The notes beneath the pieces were generated by a model. That model had not been told where the DNA came from, made no database searches, and worked only from the letters and a program-made list of their open reading frames with translations. Below are positions 1 to 52,542 of a stretch of 64,000 nucleotides of DNA, in pieces; the first letter of the stretch is position 1; every line of letters begins with the position of its first letter. Source of the DNA: Favolaschia claudopus (Eukaryota > Basidiomycota > Agaricomycetes > Agaricales > Mycenaceae); the NCBI GenBank assembly GCA_037176885.1, contig JAWWNJ010000024.1, forward strand, positions 1-64,000. Direction: 5' to 3'. The translations under genes were made by a program, and so were the position numbers.

Positions 1-1272
1 CTCTGGAGCCACCTCTCGCCAATCCGACGGGAGGTTTTTGCCGTCATGAGGACATGCCCAACATAACACTGCCAACTCTCCCTTCTCCGTACCGGCCACC
101 CCTCGCTCATCATGACCACGTCCCGCTCGCTTCAGACGTTTCAAGAACGCCCATTGTCGACTCATCAAGCGAAACCTTTGTAACGGTCCTGCGGATCAGA
201 AGACCGTCAGCTAGCAGTTCTTTCACCGGTGGTCCAAGCTCGTACCGGCACGGAGCCCACGCGCGTTGCGTCGCTCCGACGTTCCATCGTCTTGACGAAG
301 TCCTGGACATTGACGTTGCTTACGACGTTGAGCAAGCGGAAGGTCTCCAACGTCGCAAACGTTGCGCATGTCCCTGGATCGACAGTTGTAGCTGGGTACC
401 ACCTGTTCCTGAGTAGCTGTTGCAAGTTGTTTGCATCGTCGGATTTGTCGCAGGCGCAATATTTAAAGTTAATCGTGTGGAGGTGAGGGAAATCGAGTAC
501 CACCATCGAGCGTGCTCGTGCGGCAGGGTGAGGACACGAGAACCCTCCATGCCCTAGTTGAAACACGCATCCAAGGTCGCGCAGAGTAGTCTTGACCCAA
601 AAACGCCCATTCCACTCCTACACAACCTCGTTAGTCACCAATTTAGCTGCCTCTAATGTGCAGTAGAAACGTACCTCTGGACAATGCAAAGGAAACGTCT
701 CATGCCTCCCACTACGCACACCTCGCACTGCATAAAATCGCCGCATTGCCTGCAGCGAAACCGTCGGCACTGCGCGCCTACATCCACCCCACACGACCGA
801 CAGCGATCTGTGGCCCCGACGGCGTCCAAACCCTCGGTCCTCAGCAATTCATCCAAAAACATCCCCATCAGAGGTCGCCACTGCTTCATAGGCTCGTCCT
901 GAGAGCACGTCAGTCTCCAGCCATGCTGATTCTCGTGTCTACGCGCTGAACTTACCGCACTCTCGTATCTCTTCTTTTCTCTCCCGTTTCCTCGTCCCCC
1001 ATCCCTCAGGACCATCCACCCCCATACCCTCCTCCTCGCGCAGCGGAACCCAAGAGGCCAAAGGGTCTTGAAGCTCCGAAGGTTGCAGTCGGCGTCGCTT
1101 TGTGTGGGTCGTGGTGTTTATCTCGCACTGCACGTCGCCCGTCCAACGAGCTACTGAACAGCGTATCGCGGGAAGTATCGCCGCGTCGGAACTCGTATTC
1201 TATGAAAGACCCTCCATCTGCATTCCGCGATCCTCGAGGCGCGCGGGTCGGCGAAACATTCAGCGAATTCAT
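1..1272 (-). pseudogene. KDZ transposase, CxC2 type, N-terminal part (decayed)
   Basis: This is the amino-terminal part of a Kyakuja-Dileera-Zisupton transposase; the catalytic half lies beyond the window edge. It begins at ATG 1272 with MNSLNVSPTRAP, matching MAYLNVSPTRAP at the start of the right-hand copy (48825). The cysteine cluster of the CxC2 domain is visible at about 770-690 (CRSC, CRQC, CEVC), followed by QLGHGGFSCPHP (about 560) and YPATTVDPGTC (about 390). Compared with the right copy the frame changes at about 1120, again at about 1030, and at about 175, where KGF should run on into RQWAFLKRLKRAGR. Three frame changes in the first third of the gene argue for a dead copy. The next gene inward, W, is on the same strand. 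Confidence 0.75.
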
Positions 1273-1748
1273 CCTCAGAACAGACTGCCCAGAAACATCG
1301 ATCCGCCGAAGAGCACCACAGTCCAAAGCCCAAGAAGAGAGACGCTCAAACCAAGCTTGCAACGACGCGCACCCCCCAGACTTGAAAGCAGAAGTTAACC
1401 AGACGAGGTGCACAAGATAAATAATAAGGAGCAGGCGAGGAAGATAAATAATGTTGTCACAATCGTAACGCCCGTCACAAGCCCCATATTCATGTATTGA
1501 AATCATACCAAGTCGAAATCACCAGCAAAACAACCAATTGGAGACCAACTCAACACCTCGAGACCCTCGAGGATCGCAATTTCATCCACAAAAGCGTTTA
1601 ACATTCATCCTAAAACAAAAGACACGACAACTACTGAAACGACTACCAAACACAAAACTACCGAACAACTACGAAATTTCACAAAACATTTGGAGCACAA
1701 TTTGAAAGCAAAGTTTTTACGGGGACCGCCACGGCACTTGAGGGAGGC

Positions 1749-2918
1749 TTAGAGCGACAACAGCTGGGTCCTCATGGTCTTAACCACCACGGTGCCGTCG
1801 CTCGCCTCGAACGCGAAGCTCTGACGGCGCCGATGCTCGTCGTGCTTGCCGTTGGTGCATCCGCAATCCACGTCGCGGAACCCGTAAAGACTTATGATCT
1901 ACCCAAAACAAAACCAAAAAAACCGCGGTCAACACGAATGAAAAGCATACAAACAGGAAAGACGACGTACGCGCAAGTCGTGACGCGAGGGCGCCTCGCT
2001 GGACTCAGAGACGGGAGTCGGCGGGGGCTCGTTGTCGCCGGGGGCGGCGACGGGTGCACCGTCCTCAGCCGCAGCAGTGGCGGCGTCGGCTGGAGTCTCG
2101 GCCGTAGCGGCGGCGTCCCTGGCGGCTCTGTACTCCTCGCGAGTCGGAAAGACCGACCATTCATGCTCAATGTTCTCCGCATTGACCTGGGAGGCGGGCG
2201 CGAAGTTCATGAAGTGGCGGGGCGGGGCGCTAAGGTGGAGGTCAGCGGCAGAAGCAATACCAGAGGAAAAATACTTGCCTCGTCCAGGAAACCTCTTCCT
2301 CGTCTTCCCTGGCCGCCTGGTCGACACTGCTGAGGACGACCCCCGTTGACGCCCTCCGTGACCTGGGCATCCTCGTGTCCGGCCCTCACCTCGGACGGCA
2401 GCGACCCCCGGGGGGGTCGGCGTGGTGGCATTCCAAACCACAATGTCGGCCGGAGGGCCCTCGTGTTCCTCGTCGTCCCTACAGTCTATTAGCAGCGGTA
2501 CCACATACAGCAGCCTGAACTCACGAATCGAAGAGAGAACTGTCCTCGTACTGCTCCGCACGGCGGATGGCGGCATTGTGCTCGTTTTTGAAATAAGTGG
2601 AGGCCACGTCGTAAGAGCATTTTGCGCGGGCTTGAATCTCGAGCTTCTGCGAGAGACGGATGGGGGCCTCGGCGAAACCAGAGTCGTAGTACCGCTGGCG
2701 AATCTTCTGAAGAACGTCGTCCCTCTGATTCCTGGGGGATGGGTTCGTCAGACGAGGAAGGGCGGGAGTAGTGAATAAACTTACTTGGGCAGGCCATGCA
2801 TGACGGTCGTTGTCGCCATCTCATAGGTGATGGCTGAAGCGTCGGCTGTCATGCAGAGCGTTAGCGTCGACGAAGGGGTGTTCGAGAGAGGGTACGAACG
2901 AGTCATGGCGAAAGACAT
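1749..2918 (-). CDS. Uncharacterised cargo protein, family W (left copy)
   Basis: Unknown function. It starts with MSFAMTRSYPLSNTPS. A first block ends ITYEMATTTVMHGLP before an intron donor at about 2788. The second block has YYDSGFAEAPIRLSQKLE followed by YDVASTYFKNEHN. The last exon encodes GFRDVDCGCTNGKHDEH and then FEASDGTVVVK, ending at 1749. Each block has a counterpart in the right-hand gene at 47286-48526 (ITYE/LTFD, SYDVASTYF/SYEIACQYF, DCGCTNGKH/RCACKDGKH), so both are one family. The middle proline/alanine-rich part is poorly conserved and may contain a frame change near 2410 in a run of Gs. It is divergent to T (408 bp apart), as in the right copy. Confidence 0.6.
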
Positions 2919-3325
2919 GGCGTAGATGCAGAGTGGTGCGCAAAGAAAACTAGGAAGGGGAGCTGGGGAGGTCCACGGGCCTTTGAGAGAGAAAAGTCAG
3001 TCTTTTTATCGTCCAAAAGCCTCGCAAACCGAGCCAGCTCACCTCCACTGACCTGCACTGCCGAGAAAACGCGATCCCCAAGCCAGCCTCATCAGAACAC
3101 CGGGATCTCGCCTAAATTTCCGGGGTTAGTCAAAACCAGAGAATCCGACGCAATGGCGACAGCACCACGTGTGTTGTCACCCGCGGCACCGGCTGCAGCC
3201 AACCAAGCCCCCAAAGCAATTTGGACTTATAGTACGACAGACCGAAACGCAGACCAAACGCCCCCCCCCAAAAAAAAACTACTCACCTCTACTCACCTCC
3301 TCACCCACCTCTCTCGCTTTCTGTC

Positions 3326-4895
3326 ATGTCTCACCCCATCCTCTGGACCTCCGGCATCGATCGTCTTCCCTGTCGCGAGTTGGAGGGCTTGGAATTTGAG
3401 CTCGAGGCCACTCTTCAAGACCACCTCGCGTTACACGACCCTTCTTTGCCATGGGCAGGAGATCCTCTCCCCGAAGAGCCGTTATGGCGCCGCCCGCGCC
3501 CCGTCTTCACGCGCGTCAGTGGACGTGGTCGCGTCAGGGACCTAACCGGTCTCTCGCAGACGAGGCGCGACAAGGCCCGACTCGCTGCGCGCCGCGAACA
3601 CCGCCTCCGCCTGCTTCTCGCGACCACACTCGGTATCCGCCGGGAGGCACTCTCCGGTATCTCGTCTCGTTCGGTGGTCCATATCCGCCCCAACTGTTCT
3701 TCGACCCCGCTCTCATCGCCGACGGACAATTCGATTTCGCAGAACGTTGTCGGCCCCGGTTCCAGGTTCAACCTCCAGCATCTCAATTGGACGGGCAGGT
3801 AAGTTGTCAGTCAGATCAGTTGCACCAGAACTCATGTCGTCTCAGGAGGGTCAAGCTCATTGTTGCTGGTAGACGCGTCGTAACCTTTCTTGCTGGAGGA
3901 GCCACGACCCCGCTGTGGAAGACCAAGATCGTTGAGCCGGTGAACGCCCTCCTGGATCTCGAGGCTGCGTCCTTGCGCCAGCGCCACGCGAATGTGACTA
4001 GCCTGCCCGCAATCTCTGGAGGTGAGGGTGTCGGCTTCAATCAAGCGAGGTAAGCAGTCCCAAAGCAGTCCCAGATTGTGGTGTTGATTTAGCCCAGGTG
4101 ATTACGATGCCATTGGTGGGAGTCGCGCGCTCGACGCCCTAGCGCTCTTCGGGACGCTAGCGACGACGGCGGCCAAGCGCTTGGTGTCTTTTGGAACAGT
4201 GAGTCATCATCGGTCTCACGCTCACGCTCACGTGCTGATATTTCGTCAGGTCTCTTGCTCACATATTGCCGTTCTGCCTATCGCGCGCTCGAGGCGCAGA
4301 GAACCGCGTTCCTCGCTCACAAGCCCGACGCCCAATACCCTTGCTCCACCAGCATTTTCTCCGCCGCTACATTGCAGCTCGGTTATCCTCGCCGGAGCGA
4401 CGATATGGCTGAGCGCGTCGACCCCGGCACCTGGCAGATCCTCACCCCCCTCGGTCGCTACGACTGTCACAAAGGGGGGCAGCTCATCCTTTGGGAGTTT
4501 GGGGTGTGCGCTACTGTACCCACTGGTTGCCCTATCTTCATCCCGGCTGGTTTGGTCCATTATTCTTTTGCCGCGTCCGCCCCTCGGAATCACACTATTC
4601 CTTGCTGCAGTGGGCGGGGGCTGGGATTCGCCGTTTCATCGCGAATGGCATGCGCACCGACCGCGCTTTTGCTGCGCAATCCACTAGGTCGGAGCACCAC
4701 GCCCGCGAACATGTCCGCTCCCTCGCTCATGAAGCCGCTCTTGACAATTTCCCCTTGGCCGACACACTCGTTCGCGGATACCACGACTTTACTTACGACG
4801 ACAAGGCCCCCCCCAGCTCTACCACCGAGAAAAAAACCATCCTAGACCAAAAAAATCCGCCGCCGATCTTACTTTTGCCGATCTTACTTTTCTGA
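3326..4895 (+). pseudogene. TET/JBP-like double-stranded beta-helix protein, family T (left copy, frameshifted)
   Basis: Multi-exon gene starting MSHPILWTSGIDRLPCREL, preceded by a pyrimidine-rich promoter tract. The C-terminal half has the beta-helix pattern TLQLGYPRR...DPGTWQILTPLGRYDCHKGGQLILWEFG...PTGCPIFIPAGLVHYSF. In the active relatives recalled for this mushroom family, an HxD motif precedes the 'C/Q-I-T-LG' strand, a second His follows 'IPS', and an Arg follows. Here the HxD is missing and the final Arg is replaced (SHYSLLQ). A frame change near 4575 separates GLVHYSF from RPSESHYSLLQWAGAG. It is homologous to the gene at 45332-46952. The TET/JBP assignment rests on pattern recall and could be wrong; some other cupin-like fold is possible. 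Confidence 0.5.
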
Positions 4896-5068: not shown

Positions 5069-5817
5069 TTATATCTCTTCAGAGCTTTTATTAGGTTGGT
5101 TTTGAATGCATTTCTTTGCGCCTGCATGGAATACGAGCTTGCGATTGAGTGTAACTAGAGAGTCCCTCGAACGGCCGATAGTCGGGAGAACCGGCAAAAA
5201 AAAATCGGAGTCGTCGTCGCTCCCAGCGTCGTCCGAAGGAGCGTCCTCGTCCTCCCCGTAATAGGTTTCCTCTGTGGGCGGCGGGGTGGGCGTTGAGGGG
5301 GGTGAGCATGGAGAGGCCGTGACGGGCGATGACGAGCAAGAGTGCGCAGGTGTCGCGACGACACCGGGGTGACGGCGAACGTGCTGTTGTGGACGGAGCG
5401 GAGTCGCAATACGTGCGGAGGCGAGCGTCGATTCTCTTCTTCCCCGAGGCAGCGACGGCTTTGACGTTGGCGCGCCTACGTCGCTGAGATGAGATGGCGT
5501 CAGGACGTCTGCAATGGAAGACCCACCGCCGATATGCCTGCCTATATTGTCGTGCTTTGACGGCCTGCTGGTGCTGTACTTCCGGAGGGGCTTGTCGTAG
5601 GGCTGCTCTTTTAGCTTGCATCCGAACGCGAGCCCTCTCGTTGACAGTCTCTTTGTATCTGCGAGACCAACGAAAAGAAAAGAAAATTAGCTAACAATTA
5701 GCTAGAAGCGTGAAGGGCTTTCGCAGCCTACCGCTGTCTGTATCGCCACGCGGAGTCCGCACCCCGCGAGCGTGCTTCTGGGGGGTCGGGGGATGGCGTC
5801 GACGACTTCGGAGGCAT
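5069..5817 (-). CDS. Small basic/acidic cargo protein, family B (left copy)
   Basis: Function unknown. It starts MPPKSSTPSPDPPEARSRG. Exon 1 ends AWRYRQR; after an intron with a TTAGCTAA-rich interior it continues YKETVNERARVRMQAKRAALRQ and ARQYRQAYRR. This Arg/Ala-rich helix resembles the basic region found in many fungal 'ERMARRRA'-type proteins and may bind nucleic acid. The C-terminus is proline/serine-rich and then acidic (EDAPSDDAGSDDDSDFF). The same plan (AEAAWDYRQR, VNEKARMRM, RKYRRDY, then an acidic tail) is found at 44421-45080. It converges on T with 174 bp between stops, again matching the right copy. Exon joins at the C-terminal end are inferred. Confidence 0.5.
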
Positions 5818-6334
5818 GCTGAGCGAGGGAGAAACTAGAGGTGGCGGTGCCGCGAGGGTGAAGGGGAGTTCGTCAAAGTTGCGACAATTTGGGGTTGCGT
5901 TGCGGAGGCTAGAGAGACGGTGTGGCTTGCGCCGCAGTGATTTTAGAAGGGCCTTGTACGACGTACAGACCCAGAAAAGAAACGGAGGTGCTCGGCGTCC
6001 TGAACGAGTAGCTATCGAGTAGATGGTTGAGGTTCGTATGGGATACTACCTCATGAGACGGGAGTTCCGATGTGTCTGGCTGGGTGTCAGAGTCAAGGCC
6101 AATATCTCTCATTAGAACGTGAGGGAGGTTGTTCTGTAGGGATACTTGAGGTCGTACATTCAGAGAACCAAGTTGCAGTCGTGGGCGTCGTCGGAGGCGT
6201 TCTCAAGGCTGGTCACAGCGTGACATGTCACGCGAATCGTCGTTTTCAAAGGGAGAGCGAAAAGTGGCGAAAAATTTGAATTGCGCGGTGGTAAATACGG
6301 TACAGAGGAGTATGAACAACGACATATACACGAT

Positions 6335-7547
6335 CTACAAGGGGCGAGAGCGCTGGACAGTCTTGACGAGCCCGGCGTCCAAAGCAAGCTGAAACTCTCG
6401 CTCGGCCTCCGAGCGAGACCCAAAAGAGGCGTGCTTCGCCCGGGAACAAAAATGACATTCAGAAAACATTCAACCCAAGAACGAAACACCCCGACATTGA
6501 CGCCCTGGCACACGACGTACCAGAGGTCGGGGCCTGCCGCAGAAAGCGGATTGTCGTCAGTCGAGGGTTGCGGAGCGGCGAGAGCCCCCTTCGTCGTGTC
6601 AGAGGTCCAGCCTTTGGAGCGGGCGTGCTTAATGGCTGCTTCCGCCGTTTCAGCGGAGGGGTATCCGACCTGCAGCATGGGTTTAGCGCCCTTGACACTC
6701 GCCTGGAGGAGGGCGGCTTCGTGTTTCTGGAAAACACCGACTTTGTTACCAAAAAAAAACCGCGGTGGCGAGTGTGCGAGGTTTGGAGGGGAGGATTTGG
6801 GTGTCAAGCGATGTACTTGCCCCCCGGGGACGGAGCTGCCACCCGCAGGCAGCAACGAACCAACTGTCGGTTTCCCCGGACTCGGTGGCGTTGGAAAAAT
6901 GATATTTGCGAGTGGTGGCGGAAGTCGAAGGAAGTTGGCGGTCGGCAGTCGCGGCTCGAGAGGCTGAGGCGACGGGAGCTTCGCGTGCTTTGCCCTTGGA
7001 AGCGGCGGCAGATACGTGTATTGCCGATTGGGTCGAGATGGGCGTGGAGGAGAGGACAGGACTGTCTGGAGGAGTCTCGAAATCTGCGTTCAAGCGTGTA
7101 AGAGAAGAAGGCAGCGGGGCGGCGTGCATGAAGATGAGACTCACCCGACAACGGACAAAGGGAACTGCCGTCGTGGTCTGCGTCATTGTCCTCAAGGTCT
7201 AACTCGCAATAGATCAGCTTGCATACAAACTAAGAAAAGGAATACAACAAACCGGAGACGTGGAACACAGAGCTGCCGTGCAGATCTTCCTCGCGATCTT
7301 CTTCACTATCAGTATCATCTGCGGTTTGAGGGGCTGCGTCTGCCAAATCGTCGGTGAAGGAGGCGAGTAGAGTTGGGAAGTGTCGGTGAACGTGATCACG
7401 GCCTAGATGACGGAGGACCTCATCTTGCTCGCGGGGGTTGAGGATCGAGACGAGAGCCTCTAAGATTTCGACGGATACGGGCGAGGGGGTGCCGTCGGGG
7501 GGTTGTATGAGATTGGCGACGGCGGTGGGGGTGAGCTTGTGTGGCAT
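6335..7547 (-). pseudogene. Family Y protein with two RNase H1 hybrid-binding-like modules (left copy, frameshifted)
   Basis: The start is MPHKLTPTAVANLIQPPDGTP, parallel to MSPQSLTIEQIAALMRPPPG of the right copy (42135). After a proline/serine linker, two modules resemble the RNase H1 N-terminal/viroplasmin fold. The first reads NKVGVFQKHEAALLQASVKGA and then YPSAETAEAAIKHARSKGW. The second reads WYVVCQGVNVGVFRSW and then KHASFGSRSEAEREFQLALDAG. A frame change near 6430 separates the two halves of the second module, so this copy is probably broken. In general this fold binds RNA:DNA hybrids or double-stranded RNA; substrate and role here are unknown. Confidence 0.55.
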
Positions 7548-8805: not shown

Positions 8806-9534
8806 CTACGACGCGGCGGAACGCGAGCACTTCAGACGATTTGGACGCCACCCCCAGGTGAGTGCCTTGTTGAATGCCGTGAGGGCTTGCTGCTGGTTGT
8901 CGTACGCCTTACGTGCGGCGTGGGCAACCCCGGTGCTGGCAAAGTCGCAGAGGGCGCTGAAGAGTCGGGGCGGTCAGCCAAGGGATCAAGGGAGGAAAGC
9001 GGAGGAAGGAATGCTCACTACTGATCGACGACGCCGACAAAGCGACCTTTCGTGATCGCATACCATTCCGGGGCGGGGGTATCTTCGGGGATGGCCTCTA
9101 GAGGCTGGGTCGGAACGCAAGAGAAGACTTCATTGGCGAGGTATGGCCCCTCGTTGCGCAGCAACTCGAGGAGGGGAGCGGGGAGAGTGGAGGCCGCAGG
9201 TCGAGCCTCTTTTGGGGCGGACTCCTTCTGTTCCTTCTCCTTCTTCGGCGCAGGGGGGGCAGGCGCGAGGACGGGGGAGTACGCAGGCGCAGGGTAGGGG
9301 AGGCAGTAGCCGTGGGGGTTGGGGGCGAGAGGGTAGGGGTAGGCCTGCTGGGGATGCGCCGAGAAGGGGTAGCCGTAGGGAACGGGAGGGGCGGAGGGCG
9401 CGGTGAGCGCGACGTAGACGAGAACTGGAGGTGAAGTGTGAGTAGGGGGCGGAGAAAAGATTTCTCAAAGACGTACCGGGGGTTGGGGCAGGAGCGGTGG
9501 GTTGTGCCACGAACATGGGGGGAAAAGAGGTCAT
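8806..9534 (-). CDS. Family Z protein, RNase H1 hybrid-binding-like (left copy)
   Basis: Exon 1 gives MTSFPPMFVAQPTAPAPTP and ends at a GTACGT donor near 9478. The next exon is a Pro/Tyr-rich region followed by LLRNEGPYLANEVFSCVPTQ and PEWYAITKGRFVGVVDQ. After another intron (donor near 9013) the last exon reads ALCDFASTGVAHAARKAYDN and QQALTAFNKAL. The right copy at 40543 has LRTEGPYLANEVFVVAP, PEWYCITRGRFVGVVD and QALSAFNKAL in the same order. The last two segments look like one RNase H1-N/viroplasmin module. The right copy ends soon after NKALALG; a slip in a G5 run here (near 8849) may have altered the final residues. It is divergent to X with 315 bp between starts. Confidence 0.55.
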
Positions 9535-9848: not shown

Positions 9849-12718
9849 ATGGCCAAAAGTGCAAAGCGCGTCGCGGCGCGAAAACGGACGTGGGCGCGCA
9901 AGGAGAAAAAAGATCGTCGCAATCTGAAGATGTGGGCGGACGGGGCACGCGAGTCAGTTCTCCAGCCACATATTGCTGGCTATACCGATGCGCTGGAGCG
10001 TGGTTGGCGTGCGGAGAGGGACTACGTCCGAGAGGTGTGCCGCGAATTCCATGCGCGCATTTCGTGGCGGTTGGCGGACGACGAGGAACCGGACGAGCCA
10101 CTACCGGAGTGGGACCCTCAGGCTATTCCAGAGCCTGAGGAGTTGGACGACGAGGACACGAGAGCGAAGAGGGAGAGAGTAGAGACAATGAATGCGGTGG
10201 GTGACTTTGCCGTCATTGCCGTCGAGCGTGTGACTTACACGCTGTGCTTCTCTCCTTTTCATTTCTTGTTTATTAACGACATTGTTCGGACTTGTCTTGC
10301 TGGCTCTCTCTGTATCGACATCTACGACGACGACACTGTTTTGAATTTGCTCTGGATTTGCTCTGCTTGTACTGCGCTATCTGTCTCTACTCTGGTTTAT
10401 CTACTTGCAGCGTATCAATCGCTGGCTCAAATATCGTGCAAGAAAAATACAGAAACGCGCGATGGCTCGCGACCGCACCAAGGACCCGTGGGGTCTGTAC
10501 TTGTCCAAATTGGCTGGGTTGACGAGTCCTCCGAAAGCTAGGCAGGCATTTCAGCAATATATGCATGAGTCCTACGAAACGGACATTAAACCCGTCGTCG
10601 AGGCTAGGTGGCGAGGTAGCGCCTTGGAGGAAGACGGGGTGACGTTGCGGACGTCAAAGGGGCCGACGCACTTTTCCGCGCTCAGGTGGCGCGCGAACTG
10701 TTTAAGGAGTTGTCGGCCGAGGAGCAGAAGGCCCTCGGTGACCGCGCCAAGGGATTGGCGAAATCAGAACGCGACGAGTTCCCTGGCGAAGATGAAAGCC
10801 CCGGTGTCGAAGGATCCGGTGGATAGACAGCGGTAGGGTGTCGGCTTTTCGTACGATTATTTTCACGATGCTGACGTCGTTGTGTTCTAGGTGCATTGAC
10901 GGGCTGGGGGTGTTTGTGCAGGAGTTCTTGAAAGGCATCTACGAATACACGGGAATGTATTCCTTCTGCGTGTTCGGCGGCCCCGTGCCTTCCTTCGACG
11001 GCGATCTAAGAACGTTGACGTGAGTGCGCGCGTTGCGATGAATGGATGATGCTAAGAGATCGAAAATATTTAGCGTGGCTTGGGGACGGAATATCATCGA
11101 GAAGGCGACGTTTCCTCAGTGGGCGAAGGAGAGATTCGGGAAGGAGGTGCTGGAGTTTATGAGACAATGGCTGCTGACGGCGTTCTGTAAGTTTCTCACT
11201 GAATGCATACGATGGAGACTAGACTGAAATCTCGTGTTAGCGGATGCGGAATGCGCAGAGATGGTGTTGCCTAAGGACTCCGACGAGGATCCTTTGGCTC
11301 GCGCCAAATACCGGATGGATGACGATTGGAAAGGTGACGATGGAGGGTCGGATTCAGGGAGCGGCGATGAGAACGACTCTGACGCTGACTCGGACTCCGA
11401 CGGTAGCGACGGGTCAGAGCCAGAGGGATCGGCGTCGGAGTCAGAGTCGGGGAGCTCGGACAGTAGCGAGGAGGACCGTGGAGTTAAGAAGAAAGATGGA
11501 CGGCGCGCCACCGAGCGTAAGAAGGCGAGGGCAAAGGCGAACGAGAAAGCGAGGGCTGAGGCGAAGAGACGGAAGGGCAAAGGAAAGGAGAAGGAGAAAG
11601 AGAAAACGAAGGAGGAGAAACGGAAGGAGAGGAAGAAGGAGAGGGTGCGAGAAAAGGAGAAGGTGAAGGGGGGAAAGGAGCAAGAGAAGAAGAAAGATAA
11701 AGAGCGGGAGAAGGTGAAGGAGAAAGAGCGGGAGAAGGATAAAGATAAAGAGCGGGAGAGGGAGAAGGTGAAAGACAAAGAGAAGGGAAGGGGAAGGAGA
11801 AGGGGAAAGAGAAGGGGAAAGAGAAGGGGAACGAGAAGGAGAAGGAGAGCAAAGGTGGATCGAAGAGAAAGGCGGGCGAAGGAGGTGGTGAGGAGGACCG
11901 GGCGACGAAAAAAGCTCGCGGGGAGAATGGACGGCCGCAGCCGAAGCCAAAGCCCAAGGCGAAGACGACGGAGGGTAAGTGGTCTCAGACGAGTATGAGA
12001 AGCGAGCTAACGACCATGATAACAGGTGCCGCATCGGGTAGTGGTGGCGGTAGTGCGGGGGAGGGGGGAACGCAAATGGGTCAGCGGCACCCGCTCCTCC
12101 CCCTGCTTCGTCACCTCCACCGCGGCCTCCAGGTGCGTCTCAAGCTCCGCCGCCTCCGCCGCCTCCACCTCCTCCGCCTCCGCCTCCGCCTCCGCCGCCA
12201 GCCCAGCCCGCACCGCCTGCCTGTCCCGCAGATGCGGCTGACTGGTTCAAGGCGGTTTACGCGGAGTTTCGACGGTGCCGCTGGGGCAGTCGTTCAATAC
12301 CTTGCTGGAGGGGTGGACCAATCTGGAGCGCGCCTACGGCTGGGAATGTGGGCGGAGAGGCTTGCCCAACGACGGTCGCCCGTCTCAAGTGTCGTCATGG
12401 GTGTCTTTGGCTCGAGGGTCAAGAGGAGGCTCAATGGGAGAAGGGAGAGGTCCTACATTGGCCGATACGGTGAAGTTTGAAAAGGAGTGGTGGGGTTGGT
12501 GGGGAAAACTTCAGCCAGAATGGCGTGTGCGTGACGAGCAGAGGGAAGGTCGTTGGGCTCGCGACGAGCGGCCTGCGACAGGTCCTGACACCTGGACATC
12601 TCTTCGCTTCCCTGGACCGAACGGCATTCTGAGCCTCGTGGCGTGTTTGTTTTGGTGGGGTAAGAAATTGAAGAGTGACGAACGGGTCGGCGGGTGGAGT
12701 GAGGCCGTGAAGACTTGA
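9849..12718 (+). pseudogene. Large uncharacterised cargo protein, family X (left copy, several frameshifts)
   Basis: Function unknown; the right copy is at 37486-40101. Segments in order: a basic start (MAKSAKRVAARKRTWARK), a block ending PEELDDEDTRAKRERVETMNA, an intron of about 210 bp, RINRWLKYRA with ARQAFQQYMHESYETDIKP, then GVFVQEFLKGIYEYTGMYSF and PSFDGDLRTLT. These are followed by an acidic Ser/Asp stretch, a long Lys/Glu repeat (11520-11870), a proline-rich linker and a C-terminal domain with WWGWWGKLQPEWR and LRFPGPNGILSLVACLFWWG. Compared with the right copy the frame shifts out near 10663 and back near 10783, again in the purine repeat near 11790, and near 12270. Similar multi-copy genes are common in agaricomycetes. 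Confidence 0.6.
11520..11870 (+). repeat. Purine-rich repeat coding for Lys/Glu stretches
   Basis: Low-complexity GA-rich tract inside family X made of imperfect GAGAAG/GAAAGAG units. It encodes runs of Lys-Glu and Lys-Asp on the plus strand. The complementary strand gives long Ser/Phe/Leu frames that are artefacts of composition. The right X copy has a similar but shorter tract. Confidence 0.8.
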
Positions 12719-13729
12719 GCTGGATGGTTTGGGGGATGCTGGCGGCAGAGGAGGCGGGGAAGAAATAGATGGACTTTATTTCCGAGGTACCTTTGCTTAT
12801 CTGAGTCTTCTTTGAGCTTGCTTTGCGTCTGCGTGCATGTATTTTCATAGTAATAGATATATTATATTGGTTGTTTGCAGGTACATGGGATCTGAGTCTG
12901 AGCTAGAGTATACTAAGGCGGAGAGGAAATTGTCGGAGAGGAAATTGTCGGAATGGTGGACTTGTGCATTTGACCTGCAGTGTGACATAACGCGTAACGT
13001 CACGTTGAGCGAAAACCTTCAAGTCCGATTACCTCTTAGATGATGTAGGCTTGGTGTGGTCTCAAATGTGTGGATGAGCAAGTGATCTGTGTATGTGCTG
13101 GGAGAGATAGAGAGGAGGAGAGTGAAGATTGATTGGTTGAGAGAATGAGGAGGGACTCTGGGAGGTTCAGAGTGGAAATGGTGTGGGAGAGGATGCCAGT
13201 GGGATTCAAGTGACAAGTCGCATGGGAAATGTTGTTAGAGGGTGATTTTGAGGAGGAGCATAATAACAAGAGACCTAATCATTCATGGAAATATGTGAGA
13301 CAAGTCTGATATATTTTGGGGTGAAAGAAAAAAGGGAAAATATGACCAGTACTATGCGCCAAATAAACAACACAGCCACAATGATCTATGGGAGCATCAA
13401 CAATCTCAACCCAGAAGGAGAACAGAGAGGAAGCTTTATATGGAAGGAGCCCGAAAGGAGAACACAACAGATGCCATATAGGGAAGCCTCGGGTAGTTTA
13501 AGAGACCGGGAGAAGTGAGATAAAGTCATATAGTCATAGCTGCAGCTGGCGGGTGGCTAGCACCGGCCAGAAAGCATTCATACAAAGGGTTAAGACAATA
13601 TGTGTATGGTGCTGGTTCTAGCCAGCGTCCTTGTAGGTCCACTCCCAAAGGCAATGGTATCGCTGGCTAGGGCCTGTACATTTAGTCTTTATATTACCTC
13701 TAGGGCTCACCTCTGGGTATCTCCACCGA
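12719..13729. other. Intergenic region with hairpins; probable inner edge of left KDZ element
   Basis: No gene recognised. Two 15-bp units GAGAGGAAATTGTCG stand in tandem near 12924. At 13546-13570 there is a hairpin with a 10-bp stem (CTGGCGGGTG / CACCGGCCAG, one mismatch, loop GCTAG). At 13611-13626 there is a smaller one (GCTGG / CCAGC). GCTGGCTAG occurs again near 13663. The element edge may lie here but no terminal repeat was matched to the other end. Confidence 0.4.
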
Positions 13730-32100: not shown

Positions 32101-32139
32101 CCCGCAGGCACTTCAAGGTCTGCGCTGACCCAGGCTTAG
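26122..32139 (+). CDS. Helitron RepHel protein: N-terminal Zn-like region, Rep (HUH/Y2), PIF1-type helicase
   Basis: Exon 1 starts MAEHSLESAFRSFKLTEAIL. The next exon has two Cys pairs (CMVC, CTQC) in a region like the domain preceding Helitron Rep in basidiomycetes. Two introns lie near 27344-27540. The Rep part shows the HUH motif (GSLHLHILFW, HLH at 28462-28470) and the paired tyrosines in FYITLYIAKKQ (28963 and 28975). After introns near 29270-29320 and 29387-29440 comes the helicase: GEGGTGKT (about 30650), NIDECSM, GDFHQFPPI, TDYKSQGQTI and YVALSRSRG. It ends at 32139. A run of ten A's at 28363-28372 shifts the frame between LFGIE and RPGIVGVVNAYIGT; otherwise the gene reads through. 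Helitron Rep nicks and joins DNA strands and the helicase unwinds them. Confidence 0.8.
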
Positions 32140-40542: not shown

Positions 40543-41135
40543 ATGAGCCTCACTCCAGTCGCCGGATTTGCCCCCAACGGTCAGTGTATTATTCTACTTA
40601 TCATCGCTCCCTTCTCTTCTCTAACTCATTCAGCAGTTGTCTGCATCGTCATCCCCATCTCGGGCTTCCTCGCCGCTCCTGCTCTCCCCCAACCTCCTCC
40701 TCCCCCTCCTCATTCCAAAAAAGACAAGGAGGTCGCCACCAAGGAAGTTCCCGTCCCCAAGGAAGTCCCCGCCCCCGTGCCTGGTGCCGGTTTGCCCTCG
40801 GCTCTCGTTCCCCATCTCCGCACCGAGGGCCCCTACCTCGCCAACGAGGTGTTCGTCGTCGCACCCGCCGAGGCCCTCGCCCCCGTCGACGAAGAAGTCC
40901 GTGCCCCCGAATGGTACTGCATCACTCGCGGCCGATTTGTCGGCGTCGTTGACCATCAGTGAGTCTACCATTTTTCTTTTTTATCTCTCTTTCATTCCTC
41001 TATTCCAGCGCGCTCTCGGATCTTGCCATCAGCGGTGTCGCCGGTGGTGCGCGCAAGGCCTTCGAATCCCAGGCCCAGGCTCTCTCCGCCTTCAACAAGG
41101 CGTTGGCTTTGGGAATTGTGCACGTCGTTGTTTAG
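40543..41135 (+). CDS. Family Z protein, RNase H1 hybrid-binding-like (right copy)
   Basis: Starts MSLTPVAGFAPNG, then an intron (donor near 40579), a proline-rich and Lys/Glu-rich stretch (PPPPPPHSKKDKE) and LRTEGPYLANEVFVVAPAEA. PEWYCITRGRFVGVVD is followed by an intron (near 40958-41010) and ALSDLAISGVAGGARKAF with QALSAFNKALALGIVHVVV, ending TAG 41135. The last two segments match the RNase H1-N/viroplasmin pattern (Y/W-Y-x-V-x-x-G-x-x-x-G-V, then F-x-x-x-x-x-A-x-x-A-F). The 3' flank has four TCGTAG units near 41230. It is paired with the left Z at 8806-9534. Confidence 0.6.
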
Positions 41136-42134: not shown

Positions 42135-43644
42135 ATGTCCCCGCAATCCCTCACTATTGAACAAATCGCCGCCCTTATGCGCCCTCCTCCCGGTTCTCCT
42201 AGACTGTCCCACCGCCAGCTTGAAGAATTGACGGCGGGTCTCTCTGAGGAGGAGACGCAGCGGCTAGCGACTTTACTGGGGTTCGGGGACCTCCTGCAAC
42301 AATTCCAGCCCCTCCTCGGCAAATTAATGCGCGTTGGGCAAATGTCTGTGGCCCGACAGCCGCCGGACGCGGACGACGACGTCCATCGCATCATTCGTAA
42401 CATTCCCGTTTTTGAGCTTGCTGGTACATTTTCCGCTTTTGAATGGTTTTTAATTTTCCTGAAGTCGCTCTGCTCTATAGAAGCGGAATTTGCTGCGCGT
42501 TCCACTGCTTCGGGTTCCACTGCCTCGCCTGCCGCCTCTGGTCGTCCACGCACTCCTCCTCCTCGCTCTTCATCTCCCCCTACTGAACAGCTCGGCAATT
42601 TCCATCTCTCTGGGACCACCGCCTCTTCGCCTTCTTTCCAGAGCAAGCCCGCCCATCCCACCACCGCCAAAGGCGAATCGTCGGCTTTCTCGAAGGGCAA
42701 GGACAAGGCTCCCGCTATTTCCATTCCAAGTGAGTCTTGTTTCGCTCTCGCCAACTCATCTCTCAATTTTCTTACTGGAATTCAGAAACCCCGTCTCGCT
42801 CCACATCGAGCTCTATCTCGACCGCGTCCGATTTGTCAGGTAATCCATATGTATATGTAAATCGTTCCTGGCTAACATTCTATTCAATTTAGATAGTCCA
42901 CCGTCGACCCCTCGCACACCAGCGAGTCCGCATACTCCCGGTCCTGCGATCTCCCGCCCAGCGTACAGCTATCATACGCCGACCAAAAGCGGTACGAGCG
43001 GGACGTGGTTTGAGACGGGGAACGCCACCATTCAGGTCCCGGGTACTCACACGGAGCGCCTTCGTCGGGAAACTCGGGCAACCCTTGCTTTCGCACCTCC
43101 TTCATCGCCTCGGGCTTCGCCCCAGCCCCGGGGCTCCGCGCCGCCGCCGCCGCCGCCGCCGCCGGCAGCAAACCCCGCCCCGACCCCTTCTCCTGGGCGC
43201 AACAGCAAAGGTTTCGCTGTTTTCTACGGGTTCGAGGTGGGAGCGTACACCTCGTATTCCCAAGTGCTTCCGCGCATCACTGGGTATAGCAACGCCGTCC
43301 ACTGCAAATTCCCAAGCCTTAGGGCAGCGCAGAACGCGATTGCGTACGCTCGTGGCCGCGGATGGACTTCCGATTCCGAGCCCCCTCCCGGTGAACCCGC
43401 CGATCCCCAGCCACCGCCCGACGTGTACACCGTGAACCCCCTCAGCGCCGGCGCTGACGGCGGGTATTATGTTGTCTGTCGGGGCATTTGCCCAGGAATT
43501 TATAGGTCGTATGTGGAAGCCGCCCTCAACACGTCCGGCGTGCAGGGCAATATGTGGAAGAAGTACGGGGAGCGGGACATGGCGGAGTTCGTCTACAACA
43601 TGGCGCTCGAGGAGGGGTGGGCGCGGTTGATACCCCGCCAGTAG
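42135..43644 (+). CDS. Family Y protein with two RNase H1 hybrid-binding-like modules (right copy)
   Basis: The start MSPQSLTIEQIAALMRPPPG matches the left copy. A helical N-terminal block follows (QLEELTAGLSEEETQRLATL). There are introns near 42400-42480, 42730-42785 and 42840-42893, and a Ser/Pro/Thr-rich linker between. Module 1 reads GFAVFYGFEVGAYTSYSQ with FPSLRAAQNAIAYARGRGW. Module 2 reads GGYYVVCRGICPGIYRSYVE with KYGERDMAEFVYNMALEEGW; the stop is at 43644. Two such modules in tandem on a long disordered linker suggest a nucleic-acid-binding protein. The hybrid-binding assignment comes from the conserved aromatic/glycine spacing, not from a search. Confidence 0.6.
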
Positions 43645-43683
43645 AATACGTTTGTCGCTGTTGGTGTTGTTGTATTACGCGTT

Positions 43684-44420: not shown

Positions 44421-45080
44421 ATGCCCAGAGCAAAATCAAATCTTGCTCAGCCAGACATTCTTCTGAAGCGGGCAGAGGCGGCGTGGGACTACCGACAGCG
44501 GTGCGCTTTTCTTCCTCGTACATGATCAATCTAACAACTTAAACAGAAATAAAGTAGAAGTCAATGAGAAAGCTCGCATGCGCATGCGCCGGTGAGTGGT
44601 GACTTCCTAGTGAAACAAGCATCATGTAAGCGTGTTGCTCACCGACACAGGCGTCGCGCGGAACTCAAAAACGCTCCTTCCGCTGTGCAACTTGAATACT
44701 TGAATCGGGCGCGCAAGTATCGACGCGACTACAGAGAGTAAGTAGTCTACCTCCACTACACTGTCGCGCACGGGCGCTGAAGAACTTGAAGGCGCGTCAA
44801 ACGCGGCGGCAAAAAACACGGGGACAAGTCCAGGAGTCGCGTCAACACAACTTCTGTTCCGCTTCGCCACCGTTCGCAAACCTCGACCAACCCGCCCACC
44901 CCTCGCAGTCCCTCCTCGTGCCCTTCACCCGCTGCAGTCAGACAGTCTCCGCGATGCACACTCTTAAACAGCTACGACGAAAATGGCACCGACGATGATT
45001 TTTCTGAGGACGGACGGATGGAACTACTCCACCCTACGGCCGTGCTGTGGCGAAGGGGGTCGAGGTGTTATATGCTGTAA
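44421..45080 (+). CDS. Small basic/acidic cargo protein, family B (right copy)
   Basis: Exons inferred by comparison with the left copy. MPRAKSNLAQPDILLKRAEA with AWDYRQR is followed by an intron (44500-44548), then NKVEVNEKARMRMRR, an intron, and RRAELKNAPSAVQLEYLNRA with RKYRRDYR. After a further intron the tail is proline/serine-rich, then acidic (SYDENGTDDDFSEDG), stopping at 45080. The basic helix and acidic tail are the conserved features. Possibly DNA- or chromatin-binding, but no named domain is recognised. It converges on T with about 250 bp between stops. Confidence 0.5.
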
Positions 45081-47285: not shown

Positions 47286-48526
47286 ATGTCTGAAGGTTCT
47301 CCCCTCCCTCGTTCCTCCCCCATCCCCACGTCTCCCGCTACTTCTTGTCCCAGCCCTCCTCCTGCGACCCAGCCTCGTCATGAGGCGCCGACAACCCCTC
47401 CCGTGTGGACTCCCTGGAAGGGTAGGCTCTATTTCTTCCGTTGCGAGCATATGCTCAATTGTTTTAGTGCCCAACAATCCGGCTTCTCGTCCAGTGCCTG
47501 ACAAGAAGGCTTTGACTTTCGATATATCGTCCACCACTGTTGTTTCGGGAGTTCCTTCGTAAGTACTCGACATCCTCTGTTCGCGGCCGTATCACTGACC
47601 ACGACTGTTGTAGCAAACATAAGGCTCACGTTTTGGTCCAGTACTACAGGCGCTACATGGCCGGCGGTCATCCCGACTCGCCGGTGCTCAGTGGCGACGA
47701 GGAGAAGAAGGCGCGTGTGATCGCTTCATACGAGATTGCCTGCCAGTACTTCCGCAACAAATATCAAGAGGCTGAGGAAGCGGCTGAGCACGCCAACTCT
47801 GACGACGGTCACCACACGTATGTTTTTTCTATCCCTTTTCAAGCTTTCTTTACCTTCTACCCAATTGCAGTGATTCTTCGGACGAAGAGGAGGAGTTTGA
47901 GCACCCGCCGCCTATCTTTTGGTTTGGCGGCCATCCGTACCAGCCGGGGCAAGACGAACTCAGCTACGCCGACGGCGCCTCCGGCATCGTGAATGAGATC
48001 GATCGCATGCTCGGCGATGACCAGGAGAAGGGGCGGGATCGTGCCACGAAGGCGTGGGCAAGGTGGGGCTTTCATTTATTATTGTTGTTTCAATGCTCAA
48101 GTACGCTATCGTTACAGTGCGGGACTCCCCCATGTCTTCAGCTTTGCGTCCGCTGCCGGCCCCGTCCATGGAGAGCCCATTGAGCGCGCTTGGGCCGAAT
48201 CTGCGCCGCCTGTTCCCTCCATGCCGTCTCCCCCTTCAACCTCTGCACCTGCCCCGTCCGTCGCCACTCCCGGGCCCGCCGGTACATCCAGCGCAAGTGC
48301 TTTGACGCACCCCCTTCGTGTGAGTTTCCAGCTCAGTCACTTTCGGCGCATCTTGACTAATCGTTTCTTGAAGCTGGTTTGTATTTTCGGCTGGCGCGAC
48401 GTTCGCTGTGCTTGCAAGGATGGCAAGCACGGCGATCTCAAGCGGAACCAGACCTGTGCATTCAACGCGCACGATGGAACGATGGTGGTGAAGTCGGTGT
48501 CAACTGAGGTTGTGCCGTTGAACTAG
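47286..48526 (+). CDS. Uncharacterised cargo protein, family W (right copy)
   Basis: Starts MSEGSPLPRSSPIPTSPATS. After an intron comes DKKALTFDISSTTVVSGVPS; after another, KAHVLVQYYRRYMAGGHPDS with SYEIACQYFRNKYQEAEEAA. An acidic patch and PPIFWFGGHPYQPG follow. After further introns come GLPHVFSFASAAGPVHGEPI, a proline linker and the C-terminal block FGWRDVRCACKDGKHGDLKR with FNAHDGTMVVKSV. The left copy at 1749-2918 has all these blocks. The C-terminal Cys/His pattern (C-A-C-x3-K-H) could bind a metal. No known family was recognised. It is divergent to T (334 bp apart) and lies 299 bp before the transposase on the same strand. Confidence 0.6.
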
Positions 48527-48824: not shown

Positions 48825-51800
48825 ATGGCTTACCTCAACGTGTCTCCTACGCGTGCACCGAACACTGCGAGGCACATAGACTCTTTTATTGAATACGAAA
48901 CGCGCTCTGGAGATACAACCCGCGACTCCAACTTCCACTCTTCTCAAGACGGTCGCCGGAAGAGACAAGACGCAATTAATATTCAGCCTAAGAAACGCAA
49001 AGTACTCCCTTCTGATCTCAACGACACATTCGGCGACTGGATTCCTCTTCAAGACGATAACACGGGAGCGGACGGCGAATATGGGGAGGACGAAGATGGC
49101 GCGAATCGCGACGCGGCAGGGGAAAAGCGGAAACGCTACGATAGCTCTGTGAGTACAGGTTATCGAGTAATCGCCGGCAACATACATTGACAATACTTAG
49201 GACGACCCAATGAAACTCTGGCGCCCGTTAGTTGGGCTTTTTCTTGACGAAATGATTAGACACGACGGTCTGCCAACAACCCCAAAATGTGCGTGTTGCG
49301 GAAAGGAATGGTTGTCCGCTGCACGCAAATTTCGCTGCAAGGCTTGCGGAATCTTCCTTCAATGCATCGATTGTGTTCTGCAGCGACACGAGCTGGCACC
49401 CTTACATAGTCTGGAGGTAAGATTTGCGTCTCACCGACGATTGAGTGTTTTTTTAGCTGACGCTTGGTTGTAGGAATGGAATGGGAGGTTTTGGGATTCA
49501 ACGTCGCTTACCAAGTTGGATTTCGTCTATCAGCTGGGCCACGGAGGCCATTCCTGCCCACATCCAGCCCCCGCCGTCCGCCAAATGGTAGTTATGGATT
49601 TTCCGCGCATCCATACCATCAAGTTTCGGTACTGCGCATGCGACCTTTCCGATTACGCCAATAACTTGCAACAACTGCTACGAAATGGATGGTATCCGGC
49701 CACAACGGTGGACCCCGGGACCTGCGTGACATTCAGCACTCTGGAGACATTTAGGCTACTCAACGTGGTGGGTAATTTAACGGTGCACGATGGCGTAAGG
49801 GTTATGGAGCGGGGTACGGACGCAGGGCGGATGAATTCAATTCCGGTAAGTTGAATCTGAATACCATGCTTTGCGGCCGTTGCTGAGGCTGTTTCAGGAT
49901 CGTTATAAGGGTTTTGGGCGGGTGACACGACAATTTGCGTTTCTCAAGCGTTTGAAGCGCGCTGGACGCGCGCACGACGTCAGTGGGGTCGCAGGTACGA
50001 AGAGTGGTGAATGTGCGATGTTGTGTTGGGCGTGCCCTCAAGAAGGAAGGAATCTACCACAGGGATGGCGGGAAGTCTCCCCTGAATTCCAGTTCGTGCT
50101 TCACTCTGATACTTCGACGTATGGTGTATTAATGCGCGAATTTCAGGTTTCTTTTCATGCTTATCTTGGCTGTAGACGCAAACTTTCATATGAGGAATCG
50201 ATTGCGCGCAAACCAACGGGACGATCCTCCTCTCGGGGACGGCTGGGCGTACATGGTAGAGGAGAGTGGGTACCATGAGCATCTGCGAAATTATGTTGGG
50301 GAAGAGGATGTGAGTGCAGCGTCGTCTTTGGCGTTTTCTGATATCTCGCTAACGATACGTGCCAAGGTGTCCACTTGTATTGCGTTTCAGGCGCTGTTAC
50401 AGAAAGATACTAGAGTGACGACAGGTTTACGGTGTTCGGGAGTGGGAGGTGTTGTTTGCGCCCGGCACGAGTTGATGCGTCCGCGGGGTGTAGGTGACTT
50501 GCAAAAAGGGGAGAGGTAGGCTGCGGTATGCGTGGCGGTTTCTGCATTGCTGATTCCGAATGCAGGTATTCAAACATGGACTATATAGTCCTGAGCTCTG
50601 TGCTGGGCATTCTCGCTCTTTTTTTGGCTATTTCCTACGATATTGCCTGCCAATGGCAGGTCAAGTTCCCGAATCGAATGAAAGATATGCCCGAGCACCT
50701 TCAACTTGATTTGACGAAAATCACCTTACTTTTCGCTCTACCGGTTTGGCATGCGGCAGCACATGAGCGGAGTTGTCAAGCACAAAATTCTCTAACTTAC
50801 ACGAAGGGGGTTGGACGAACCGACGGCGAGGGAATAGAACGCACATGGTCGCGACTCAACACATTGGGGTGGGCCACAAGGGAGATGGGCCGGGGTGCAC
50901 GCGCAGACGCGATTGACGATCGTCTCGACCATCACAATTGGGAAAAGAATATGAGTTTGGGTAAGCTCCTTACTTGCTATAATACAAAGCTGCGAGCTGA
51001 TCGTTAGTTCCAAAGCGACGTCCCTTCCGCACAAGCTCGTCGTAGCGATTGACGAGCGGGATAAGCAAATTGCTGGCTTTGAGCAAGTCGACTCAACCTT
51101 GGAGGACGGTCTGCGAGAAGAATGGCAAGGCTTGGTGGATGCGTGGCTGGCGGACTCGACAACAACCGAATCCTTACATTGGATCAAAGACTGAAAGTCA
51201 GTTCTTACTGGTATAGCGAGCGTCATCTTTTCTGATATTCTTCAAAAGATCTATCGGAGGCGACGATACGGCGTGAGTAGGCGAAGGAGGAGTTAGATGA
51301 GGCTGCATCGTTGACCGCTGGAAGGAAGTTGCATGGGACGAGTATGAGCGCTTTCTTGGTCATGGGTCTACAATTGGAGGGTCAGCAGTAAGTTTTTCTT
51401 ACGATAACCTCTAGAATCTCGAGCTGACGTTTTTGGCGCCGCAAGGGCTAAGATTCGACTGGGAGATCAAACACCGTCCGTTACTGCTTTCGGAGCAGAC
51501 GGAGCGCCTGTCGCAGATGCGCAGGGCATTCTTTGTGAAGGTCACGAAGTTTCGCCGGCTGCAGGCTGTGTACATGCCCGGAGCAGTAGAGGAGTTGATG
51601 GAGGAAGAAGATGCACGAGACTCCGAACTCCCAGCGCCGCAGGCTGAGGACGTTCGACTGTACATGCCATCCGGGCTTCCCGCGCCACGGAGGACAGCTT
51701 GTTCACAGAAGATACTGGATAGGGAAGCGGAGGCTAAGGGAGGGCCAGTTGAGTGATGGATAGCAAAATTACGACGGGCGCTGCTGTCGAGGACTCACCT

Positions 51801-52542
51801 CTGGGACTGGAAAGGATGATCGGGTTCGCGGGCAGAGAGCTGGGACCCGTTCAGCCGTCCTTTCCGAGCGTGTGGAACTCAATATTCAAGAGATCGCCAA
51901 GAAGTATGTGCGTCTCGCGACGCTCTGATCGCTCTCAGAGGGGAGGAAGACTGCACGGAGTGGAAGGTTTTGCGGGACGAGGATATACGTGGAGATAATG
52001 TGGAGGAGGTCGACATGGCGGCTCGACGTAAGTTGGGACGAGTTGGAGCAACAACGAGGGAGCGATACAGGTCGAAGGTGGCGGGTCGCAAGGATGGAAA
52101 GGGCGGTAAAGGGCAAGCGAGGCAAACAGCAAATGTCCTGGATCTGACCAGCGGCGGAGGTCCGGGAGAGGATGAGCAAGAGTTTGCGAGAAGGTAAGCG
52201 CATATGCTTAACTTTTGCCTGGCGATTGCTGATACTATTCATATGTTACAGCCGTGCGGATCGAGTGGTCTCGCGCAAAGGCGCGGCGAGATCGGTGGAC
52301 CGAGGAGGTGACGTTTGTTACGGGAGGAGATGAGACGTGTTCTAAGGTTTCTGGCTTCGCAAGCCGCCTGGTGGGAGGAACGTCTGGCTGTGGACCGCGA
52401 GGTTCGCGAAGACGTCGGCGCGCGGTTTACGAGCGTATGCTGCCCGGCAGGCGGCGAAAGCGCGGTGCGATTTGCGCGCCGCTTTAAAGCACTGTGGGAT
52501 ACTTCGGCTTCAGAGGTTGTGCGGGCTTGCGCTTGCGGATGA
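48825..52542 (+). CDS. KDZ transposase with CxC2 cysteine cluster (right copy, apparently complete)
   Basis: Multi-exon gene starting MAYLNVSPTRAP. The CxC2 cluster is KCACCGKEW, FRCKACGIFLQCIDC (about 49286-49376), followed by QLGHGGHSCPHP and YPATTVDPGTC. The transposase core shows the acidic residues expected for the family: LILAVDANFHMRN (about 50165), SYDIACQWQVKFPNRM (about 50635) and GVGRTDGEGIERTW (about 50810), with ARHELMRP and GDLQKGERYSNMDYI between. The C-terminal coiled-coil part (LREEMRRVLRFLASQAAWW) is typical. Introns are about 50 bp. The exact last exon is uncertain; a frame change near 52485 is possible. It should cut and move DNA as a DDE-type enzyme. Confidence 0.75.

Follow-up and report, generated by a model that had tools for sequence, protein, structure and literature searches.

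As a rule, a cut-and-paste DNA transposon contains one or two genes. In mushrooms, expansions of KDZ transposons and of TET/JBP genes linked to them were reportedly described by Iyer et al. in PNAS in 2014. Among the KDZ elements, Kyakuja generates a 7-bp target-site duplication (TSD), as compared to 8 bp for Zisupton and Dileera, and possesses 5'-CA..TG-3' termini without terminal inverted repeats (TIRs) (PMC12730594). In the text of the same paper, figures and supplement aside, TET is the only cargo named for Kyakuja. The KDZ1 element of Cryptococcus (PMC12810828) resembles the element described here in being mobile, large (about 11 kb) and a member of the KDZ superfamily, but differs in its 241-bp TIRs, its 8-bp TSDs and a CxC1 instead of a CxC2 domain. 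In Marasmius oreades, for which KDZ and Plavaka elements have been reported, KDZ is likewise a major DNA-transposon group of a mushroom; the passages covered give no seven-gene content (PMC8290104). Within the literature searched, including the text portions covered of PMC12730594, PMC10905254, PMC12810828 and PMC8290104, no description of such a seven-gene KDZ content was recognised, and the portions covered of PMC8889193 contain no mention of KDZ.

The window analysed here covers the first 64 kb of scaffold C24 (C24:1-64000) from Favolaschia claudopus, a wood-rot mushroom. According to the original prediction, seven protein families occur in it twice, in mirror order and with every strand inverted, and this was confirmed for the two blocks A and B listed in Table 1. 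Both blocks are best read as old copies of one autonomous, Kyakuja-like family of cut-and-paste DNA transposons from the KDZ superfamily (probability roughly 0.93), and that the element itself is a real seven-gene transposon can be regarded as nearly certain. It measures 16-17 kb with the gene order X- Z+ Y+ B+ T- W+ KDZ+, and its CxC2-KDZ transposase moves together with six other genes as a single unit. The KDZ transposase domain PF18758 and the CxC2 domain PF18803 are both present, CxC2 in A as well as in B, and the 120 homologues listed out of 1432 carry both domains, too. In block A, the KDZ gene is truncated by the scaffold end, T displays frame changes relative to T of block B, and splicing and end of gene B were judged by eye. 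The KDZ protein of block B is 98% identical to P0127; judging from the frame changes seen, its C-terminal part is probably damaged. About 200 bp following the X-side terminus of block B are conserved with copy C159.

Table 1 Features of blocks A and B in the window (positions of scaffold C24)
Block	Feature	Position	Strand	Basis
A	KDZ transposase, N-terminal part with CxC2 cysteine cluster	1..1272	-	PF18803 E=3.6e-33; ATG at 1272; matches block B KDZ
A	Gene W, 305-aa model	1749..2918	-	Gene model; 34% in alignment to block B W
A	Gene T, end approximate	3326..4842	+	T search matches C24:4240-4620 (+)
A	Gene B, small basic protein	5091..5817	-	Alignment to block B gene B; ATG and open frame
A	Gene Y, RNase H1 N-terminal-type (Cauli_VI) domain	6160..7547	-	PF01693 E=2.5e-5; gene model
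A	Gene Z, weak RNase H1 N-terminal-type match	8806..9534	-	PF01693 E=0.0011; gene model
A	Gene X: HMG-box-like domain, K/E-rich linker, C-terminal domain	9849..12718	+	Sequence match, model
A	X-side terminus GAGCCCTAGAGGTAATATA	13690..13708	-	Pattern match with 2 mismatches
B	X-side terminus GAGCCCTAGTTGTAATATA	36730..36748	+	Terminus pattern
B	Gene X (R3P38DRAFT_3187034)	37486..40101	-	100% over residues 10-400 searched
B	Gene Z	40543..41135	+	Gene model
B	Gene Y, two RNase H1 N-terminal-type domains	42135..43644	+	PF01693 E=1.5e-16, 2 stretches
B	Gene B, small basic protein	44421..45080	+	Alignment to block A gene B
B	Gene T (R3P38DRAFT_3187038), 486 aa	45332..46949	-	100% identity
B	Gene W	47286..48526	+	Model; first exons judged by eye
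B	KDZ transposase with CxC2, full KDZ domain	48825..52542	+	PF18758 E=3.6e-57, PF18803 E=1e-27; end coordinate as in the original prediction
B	KDZ-side terminus ACTTCTACTGTGA	53323..53335	+	By similarity; counterpart ACTTCTACTGTTG in C10 and C35

Beyond gene X lies a conserved, inward-facing terminus of 19 bases starting with GAGCCC, and the KDZ-side end resembles ...CTACTG(T/G)TG. Allowing two mismatches, the terminus pattern matches 122 times in 264.6 Mb, as compared to one match for the backwards control. Using the 100 of these 122 termini that were listed, an inward-pointing terminus was found within 4 kb of the 3' end of X for 40 of 54 listed X genes and in the opposite orientation for none; at the remaining 14 X loci no listed terminus lies within 4 kb. 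The GAGCCC-type terminus also occurs without X, since three of six terminus loci fetched have no X within 1.5 kb. Loci L037-L039 were examined as short deletion derivatives, and a second end was not found within 1.5 kb. The two ends of the element share a short, imperfect similarity as well as a TAGCCA-type subterminal motif. Perfect 7-bp TSDs bracket seven of the eight copies in which both ends were located (C10, TTATGAT; C66, TGCGCTC; C22, AGCGGGA; C42, TTTGCCT; C35, TACCACC; C90, GGCGTTG; C8, AGAGGAG), the exception being copy B of the window, the flanks of which contain no matching 7-bp duplication. At the KDZ end, copies C10 and C66 are identical over 1,401 bp and copies C22 and C42 over 690 bp, followed by abrupt divergence in each case; outside the ends, the flanks of different copies consist of unrelated sequence. 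The target of C22 is present in uninterrupted form at 234 places in the genome (up to three mismatches, those listed being exact; control 0). Precise termini, TSDs, differing flanks and a constant gene order thus bear out the earlier proposal of a large mobile element whose cargo is fixed.

Recurrence of the same gene order beside KDZ genes had been proposed as a check, and this order was found in all seven copies read in F. claudopus, with gene B detected in five of them; the five genome copies that were read completely had been selected among X-KDZ pairs already known, and the Z query also matched Y in C10 and C35, both being of a common domain type. For linkage across the genome, the X loci derive from 58 scored out of 4148 candidates and the 67 T loci from 85 scored out of 360. 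Of 55 X loci (the 54 listed plus X of block A, added by hand), 43 have T upstream in the same orientation, in 41 cases at a distance of 4.3-6.5 kb (chance 0.10; three other placements); 97 of 124 T rows were used here, the remainder representing low-scoring further exons. Among 149 listed KDZ rows out of at least 202 matches, there are 17 pairs with KDZ upstream of and divergent from X within 20 kb, 14 of them at 9.8-11.4 kb, next to three same-strand and two downstream placements (chance 0.3 each). The other three pairs are spaced by 14.9-17.9 kb, one of them involving the second KDZ gene of the window. At six X loci without a listed KDZ gene, the predicted place was checked and yielded a CxC2-KDZ gene in the predicted orientation in four; the two failures refer to 1.9-kb slices, which would miss a shifted gene. 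Sequence first retrieved on the X side of C49 and on the KDZ side of C24:1.067 Mb had no family match. In five Mycena species, X and KDZ share a contig and are separated by 6-8 gene numbers, as compared to no off-contig pair within 12 gene numbers among 592 same-species pairs; eight of the 14 same-contig numbered pairs have distant numbers, which belong to other number tracks and are uninformative. In the F. claudopus genome the families are neither mostly apart from each other and from KDZ genes nor part of a transposase-free syntenic host block; for other species, the comparison covered gene numbers.

The presence of both blocks, mirror-ordered, in one 64-kb window might be taken to mean that a host gene cluster, situated near KDZ genes by chance, underwent local segmental duplication in inverted orientation. 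However, the KDZ protein of A shares 87% identity (163 aa) with a copy on another scaffold versus 70.5% with that of B, and the exons of X in A share 74% with a copy elsewhere versus 63% with X of B. Blocks A and B are therefore two independent insertions and not each other's closest relatives, so that the mirror layout, while real in the window, is incidental and uninformative as to their origin. With copies elsewhere displaying TSDs and unrelated flanks in addition to these closer relatives, segmental duplication as well as host synteny is ruled out, its residual probability being negligible. A composite origin, in which a KDZ transposon was inserted into, or joined with, a second element owning X and the GAGCCC end, would account for the unlike ends and for termini without X, but one 7-bp duplication brackets both unlike ends together in seven of eight copies, which renders it very improbable. 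The six genes could also be passengers that were captured once and are functionless for the element, as T and W have no assignable known transposition function. Against this stand the gene order and strands kept in all seven copies, even in pairs with saturated synonymous sites; the X-KDZ pairing by gene number in the five Mycena species; and dN/dS values well below 1. For C22 versus C8, the sole pair compared with unsaturated divergence, the seven genes have dN/dS values of 0.15-0.42 with dS between 0.49 and 1.01, and all seven look to be under codon-level constraint in this pair, with values derived from tblastx matches, which favours conserved frames. We therefore consider mere passengers unlikely. 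Since the order outlasts synonymous saturation and X is paired with KDZ in Favolaschia as well as in Mycena, families that now figure in annotations as hypothetical host proteins are best regarded as genes of the transposon.

A more specific reading equates the unit with the TET+ Kyakuja of Kojima 2025 (PMC12730594), in which case T would be a TET/JBP dioxygenase, diverged and of the AG type, and would de-silence the element by removing 5mC. Both share a KDZ-superfamily transposase, occurrence in Agaricomycetes, 7-bp TSDs and extra gene(s) beside the transposase, and clear long TIRs appear to be lacking here as well. In contrast to Kyakuja (PMC12730594), the X-side end begins with GA instead of CA, with CA starting the KDZ-side end, and the seven-gene element thus lacks the 5'-CA..TG-3' termini; moreover, six further genes are present in fixed order, and T is without detectable TET similarity or a conserved HxD. 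The T core reads GGHIILW...PPG..LLPPGLV(H/R)YSF, with HxD absent in six of seven T proteins and HYD in P0122, and the distal position is occupied by R in three, by H in C22 and by another or a missing residue in three. This core presumably resembles a strand pair of the 2OG-oxygenase type, and T is under strong apparent constraint (dN/dS 0.15, C22 versus C8), which together with the HYD of P0122 would speak for the TET reading. On the other hand, three T proteins gave no Pfam match at E<=10, searches of PDB sequences (phmmer, profile) returned no useful match, and in PHROGs only an unnamed family was hit (E=0.013) by two of six T proteins; the AlphaFold model of T (pLDDT 36) was unusable. A TET/JBP identity of T is hence not upheld by these searches, and the TET reading as a whole appears doubtful.

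In case of X, for which one search returned 179 homologues, VIA-align pointed to an HMG box, Foldseek gave nothing significant, and profile matches in PDB sequences were discarded as those shown were low-complexity runs. The PF01693 match of Y exceeds the 21-bit cut-off in A (24.9 bits), B (60.8 bits) and C22 (67.6 bits), that of Z in block A (19.6 bits) being under it. Returning to a self-sufficient seven-gene transposon, the KDZ protein would bind the two unlike ends via their imperfect similarity and the TAGCCA-type motifs just inside, excise the element and insert it into a target staggered by 7 bp. The remaining six genes would serve the element rather than the host: X would be a DNA-bending or chromatin protein of the HMG-box type, Y and Z would bind RNA, double-stranded RNA or RNA-DNA hybrids, and B would be a small basic DNA-binding factor, roles that are suggested by domain hints only. 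That they assemble or protect the transposition complex and counter RNA- or chromatin-based silencing is the role we favour, at somewhat less than even odds. Conceivable, but less likely than not, is an undescribed class of self-equipped KDZ transposon, in which a conserved nucleic-acid and chromatin kit of six genes (HMG-box protein, two RNase-H1-N-type proteins, basic factor and the new families T and W) would act jointly to protect or license transposition, T being a new constrained family, possibly oxygenase-derived without a metal site, and amplification adding to the very large genomes of Mycenaceae.

Reading these families as transposon genes would correct gene counts in such large genomes, and the exact ends and duplications are now usable for annotation. 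If T or the X/Y/Z set did counter silencing, this would constitute a route beside the published TET one. Young, identical copies provide material for testing the contribution of additional genes to a DNA transposon. In copy C66, T is inverted, and this copy exceeds C10 in length by about 7.3 kb.

Copies of a seven-gene unit with precise ends were shown to occupy different sites in the Favolaschia claudopus genome, bordered by 7-bp duplications. Perfect duplications flank seven of the eight copies with both ends located, the exception being block B, the right-hand copy in the window, where comparison of the flanks found no matching 7-bp duplication; its transposase is probably damaged in the C-terminal part. 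Beyond gene X, block B and the copy on scaffold C159 are 80% identical over 203 bp, and this similarity stops abruptly at GAGCCCTAGTTGTAATATA, an edge which recurs at 13,708 in block A, the left-hand copy, and at C24:1,053,277. Allowing up to 2 mismatches, the terminus pattern gave 122 genome matches compared to 1 for a backwards control. Among the termini listed, one lies no more than 4 kb from the 3' end of X at 40 of 54 listed X loci (607-1,032 bp away in 34 cases), none of these 40 in the wrong direction, while 14 loci have no listed terminus. The KDZ-side end, beyond the transposase gene, was located using two pairs of copies, C10/C66 and C22/C42, which on this side show 100% identity for 1,401 and 690 bp, respectively, before diverging; read outward, it is CTACTG(T/G)TG in all four. 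The two ends resemble each other without forming long terminal inverted repeats. Three further termini of the family (L037, L038, L039) retain the conserved subterminal stretch with no X within 1.5 kb, being either derivatives formed by deletion or members of a subfamily whose contents differ.

Copies of the seven-gene element and other features of the window
Feature	Location	Strand	Length	7-bp duplication	Remark
Element copy	C10		16,291 bp	TTATGAT	
Element copy	C66		23,619 bp	TGCGCTC	
Element copy	C22		16,799 bp	AGCGGGA	
Element copy	C42		16,799 bp	TTTGCCT	
Element copy	C35		17,040 bp	TACCACC	
Element copy	C90		16,319 bp	GGCGTTG	
Element copy	C8		16,900 bp	AGAGGAG	
Weakly LRR-like family	window 14810-36516 (14.8k, 19.0k, 21.2-22.4k, 35.1k)	+, +, -, +			four diverged copies
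Helitron	window 26483-32136	+			DUF6570, Helitron_like_N, PIF1 helicase, neighbouring frames
F-box gene	window 33.4k				between the two transposons
Second KDZ gene	window 54067-58030	+			PF18758, E=3.4e-41; directly outside block B
Host-like genes, right edge	window 57688-62702	-			gene-finder model

Joining the C22 flanks with one copy of the duplication yielded 234 uninterrupted genome matches (control 0), representing uninterrupted target at other loci rather than an allelic empty site; hence, C22 sits exactly within another repeat. This high-copy repeat is probably an LTR-type element. Many of the 234 places are paired about 18.6 kb apart, the spacing expected for LTRs of one large retroelement. 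The C66 copy (G000:C66:26497-50115), like C42 read in sequence at its ends only, is identical there to C10, yet about 7.3 kb longer and with T inverted, reflecting either a nested insertion or an internal rearrangement.

The original prediction of a large mobile element with fixed cargo, recurring in the same order beside KDZ genes, was borne out by these ends and duplications together with a single gene order. Using tblastn, X-, Z+, Y+, T-, W+, KDZ+ was found in all seven annotated copies (window A, window B, C22, C8, C10, C35, C90), with gene B detected in five; the five outside the window were drawn from X-KDZ pairs. Tests subject to less selection point to the same fixed order. An independent search for T returned 67 genomic loci, and T lies no more than 15 kb upstream of X, on the same strand, at 43 of 55 X loci (41 at 4.3-6.5 kb; chance expectation 0.10), other placements numbering 3; 24 T loci have no X among the matches listed, the listed X loci being a lower bound. 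Likewise, 17 divergent KDZ-X pairs lie within 20 kb, 14 of them at 9.8-11.4 kb, compared to 3 same-strand and 2 downstream arrangements (chance 0.3 for each). At 4 of 6 X loci without a listed KDZ, inspection of the predicted place alone revealed KDZ there in the predicted orientation.

The claimed mirror-image blocks were recovered by six-frame self-comparison, which matches 1-12.7 kb with 37.5-50.1 kb in reversed order with strands inverted. The blocks are not each other's closest relatives, against a segmental duplication, which the original prediction also thought unlikely. The KDZ fragment of block A shares 87% identity over 163 aa with a protein from a 2.06-Mb contig versus 70.5% (183 aa) with block B, and its X exons are 74% identical to X on a contig likewise of 2.06 Mb versus 63% to block B. 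The blocks are separate insertions belonging to two subfamilies, with about 23 kb between them and in opposite orientation, which chance gives half the time. Truncation of block A is due to the scaffold end and not biological. The stretch separating the blocks holds a Helitron, one F-box gene and several members of a single weakly LRR-like gene family.

The window maps to C24:1-64000 of a 264.6-Mb assembly (460 contigs) and carries fungal-type, intron-rich genes. Spliced models came from a small gene finder in Python; as a partial test of their quality, the block B T model equals public R3P38DRAFT_3187038 over all 486 residues, and X equals R3P38DRAFT_3187034 across residues 10-400 (full model 94.7% identical), both entries residing on one F. 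claudopus contig of 2,219,356 bases. For strain CIRM-BRFM 2984, PMC10905254 gives a 265-Mb genome with 86.8% duplicated BUSCO genes; hence, both haplotypes may contribute to the count for some element copies.

Linkage in other species was assessed by gene name, which is silent on DNA and intervening genes, taking JGI numbers to run along scaffolds as inferred from 3187034 and 3187038 on one contig. Among the matches listed (120 of 179 X and 120 of 1432 KDZ homologues), an X and a KDZ on one contig have numbers differing by 6-8 in each of Mycena metata, vitilis, leptocephala, rosella and belliarum, and by 10 in one F. claudopus pair; 8 of 14 numbered same-contig pairs have distant numbers, and none of 592 same-species numbered pairs is off-contig within 12.

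In PMC12730594, Kojima described complete mushroom Kyakuja transposons that carry a TET gene, are flanked by 7-bp duplications and have CA..TG as termini. The present family belongs to the same transposase superfamily and makes duplications of equal length, but one of its ends and its T gene are different, and it has a further six genes in a fixed set. It is therefore filed as a KDZ transposon working like Kyakuja, apart from TET-bearing Kyakuja. No published description of the complete cargo was recognised in the literature searched, Iyer et al. 2014 lying outside its coverage.

By general knowledge of DDE transposases, KDZ would cut the element and join it at a staggered 7-bp target. X may bend or package DNA, Y and Z could bind RNA, double-stranded RNA or hybrids, and B possibly binds DNA; the set would either assemble the transposition complex or oppose silencing. 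T looks constrained and, thus, useful to the element.

The second KDZ gene belongs to a different family, with 28-40% identity in best matches to the CxC2-KDZ set; its DNA is 66-72% identical to loci L002-L004, and CxC2 was not found in the scanned model. Two further KDZ families (L012-L015, L017; L023-L027) are each represented by five copies with 99.4-100% identity over 3.7 kb, which indicates recent activity or segmental duplication. By their motifs, the right-edge genes presumably encode a superfamily-1 (UPF1-like) helicase and a SWP73/SMARCD-like SWIB protein.
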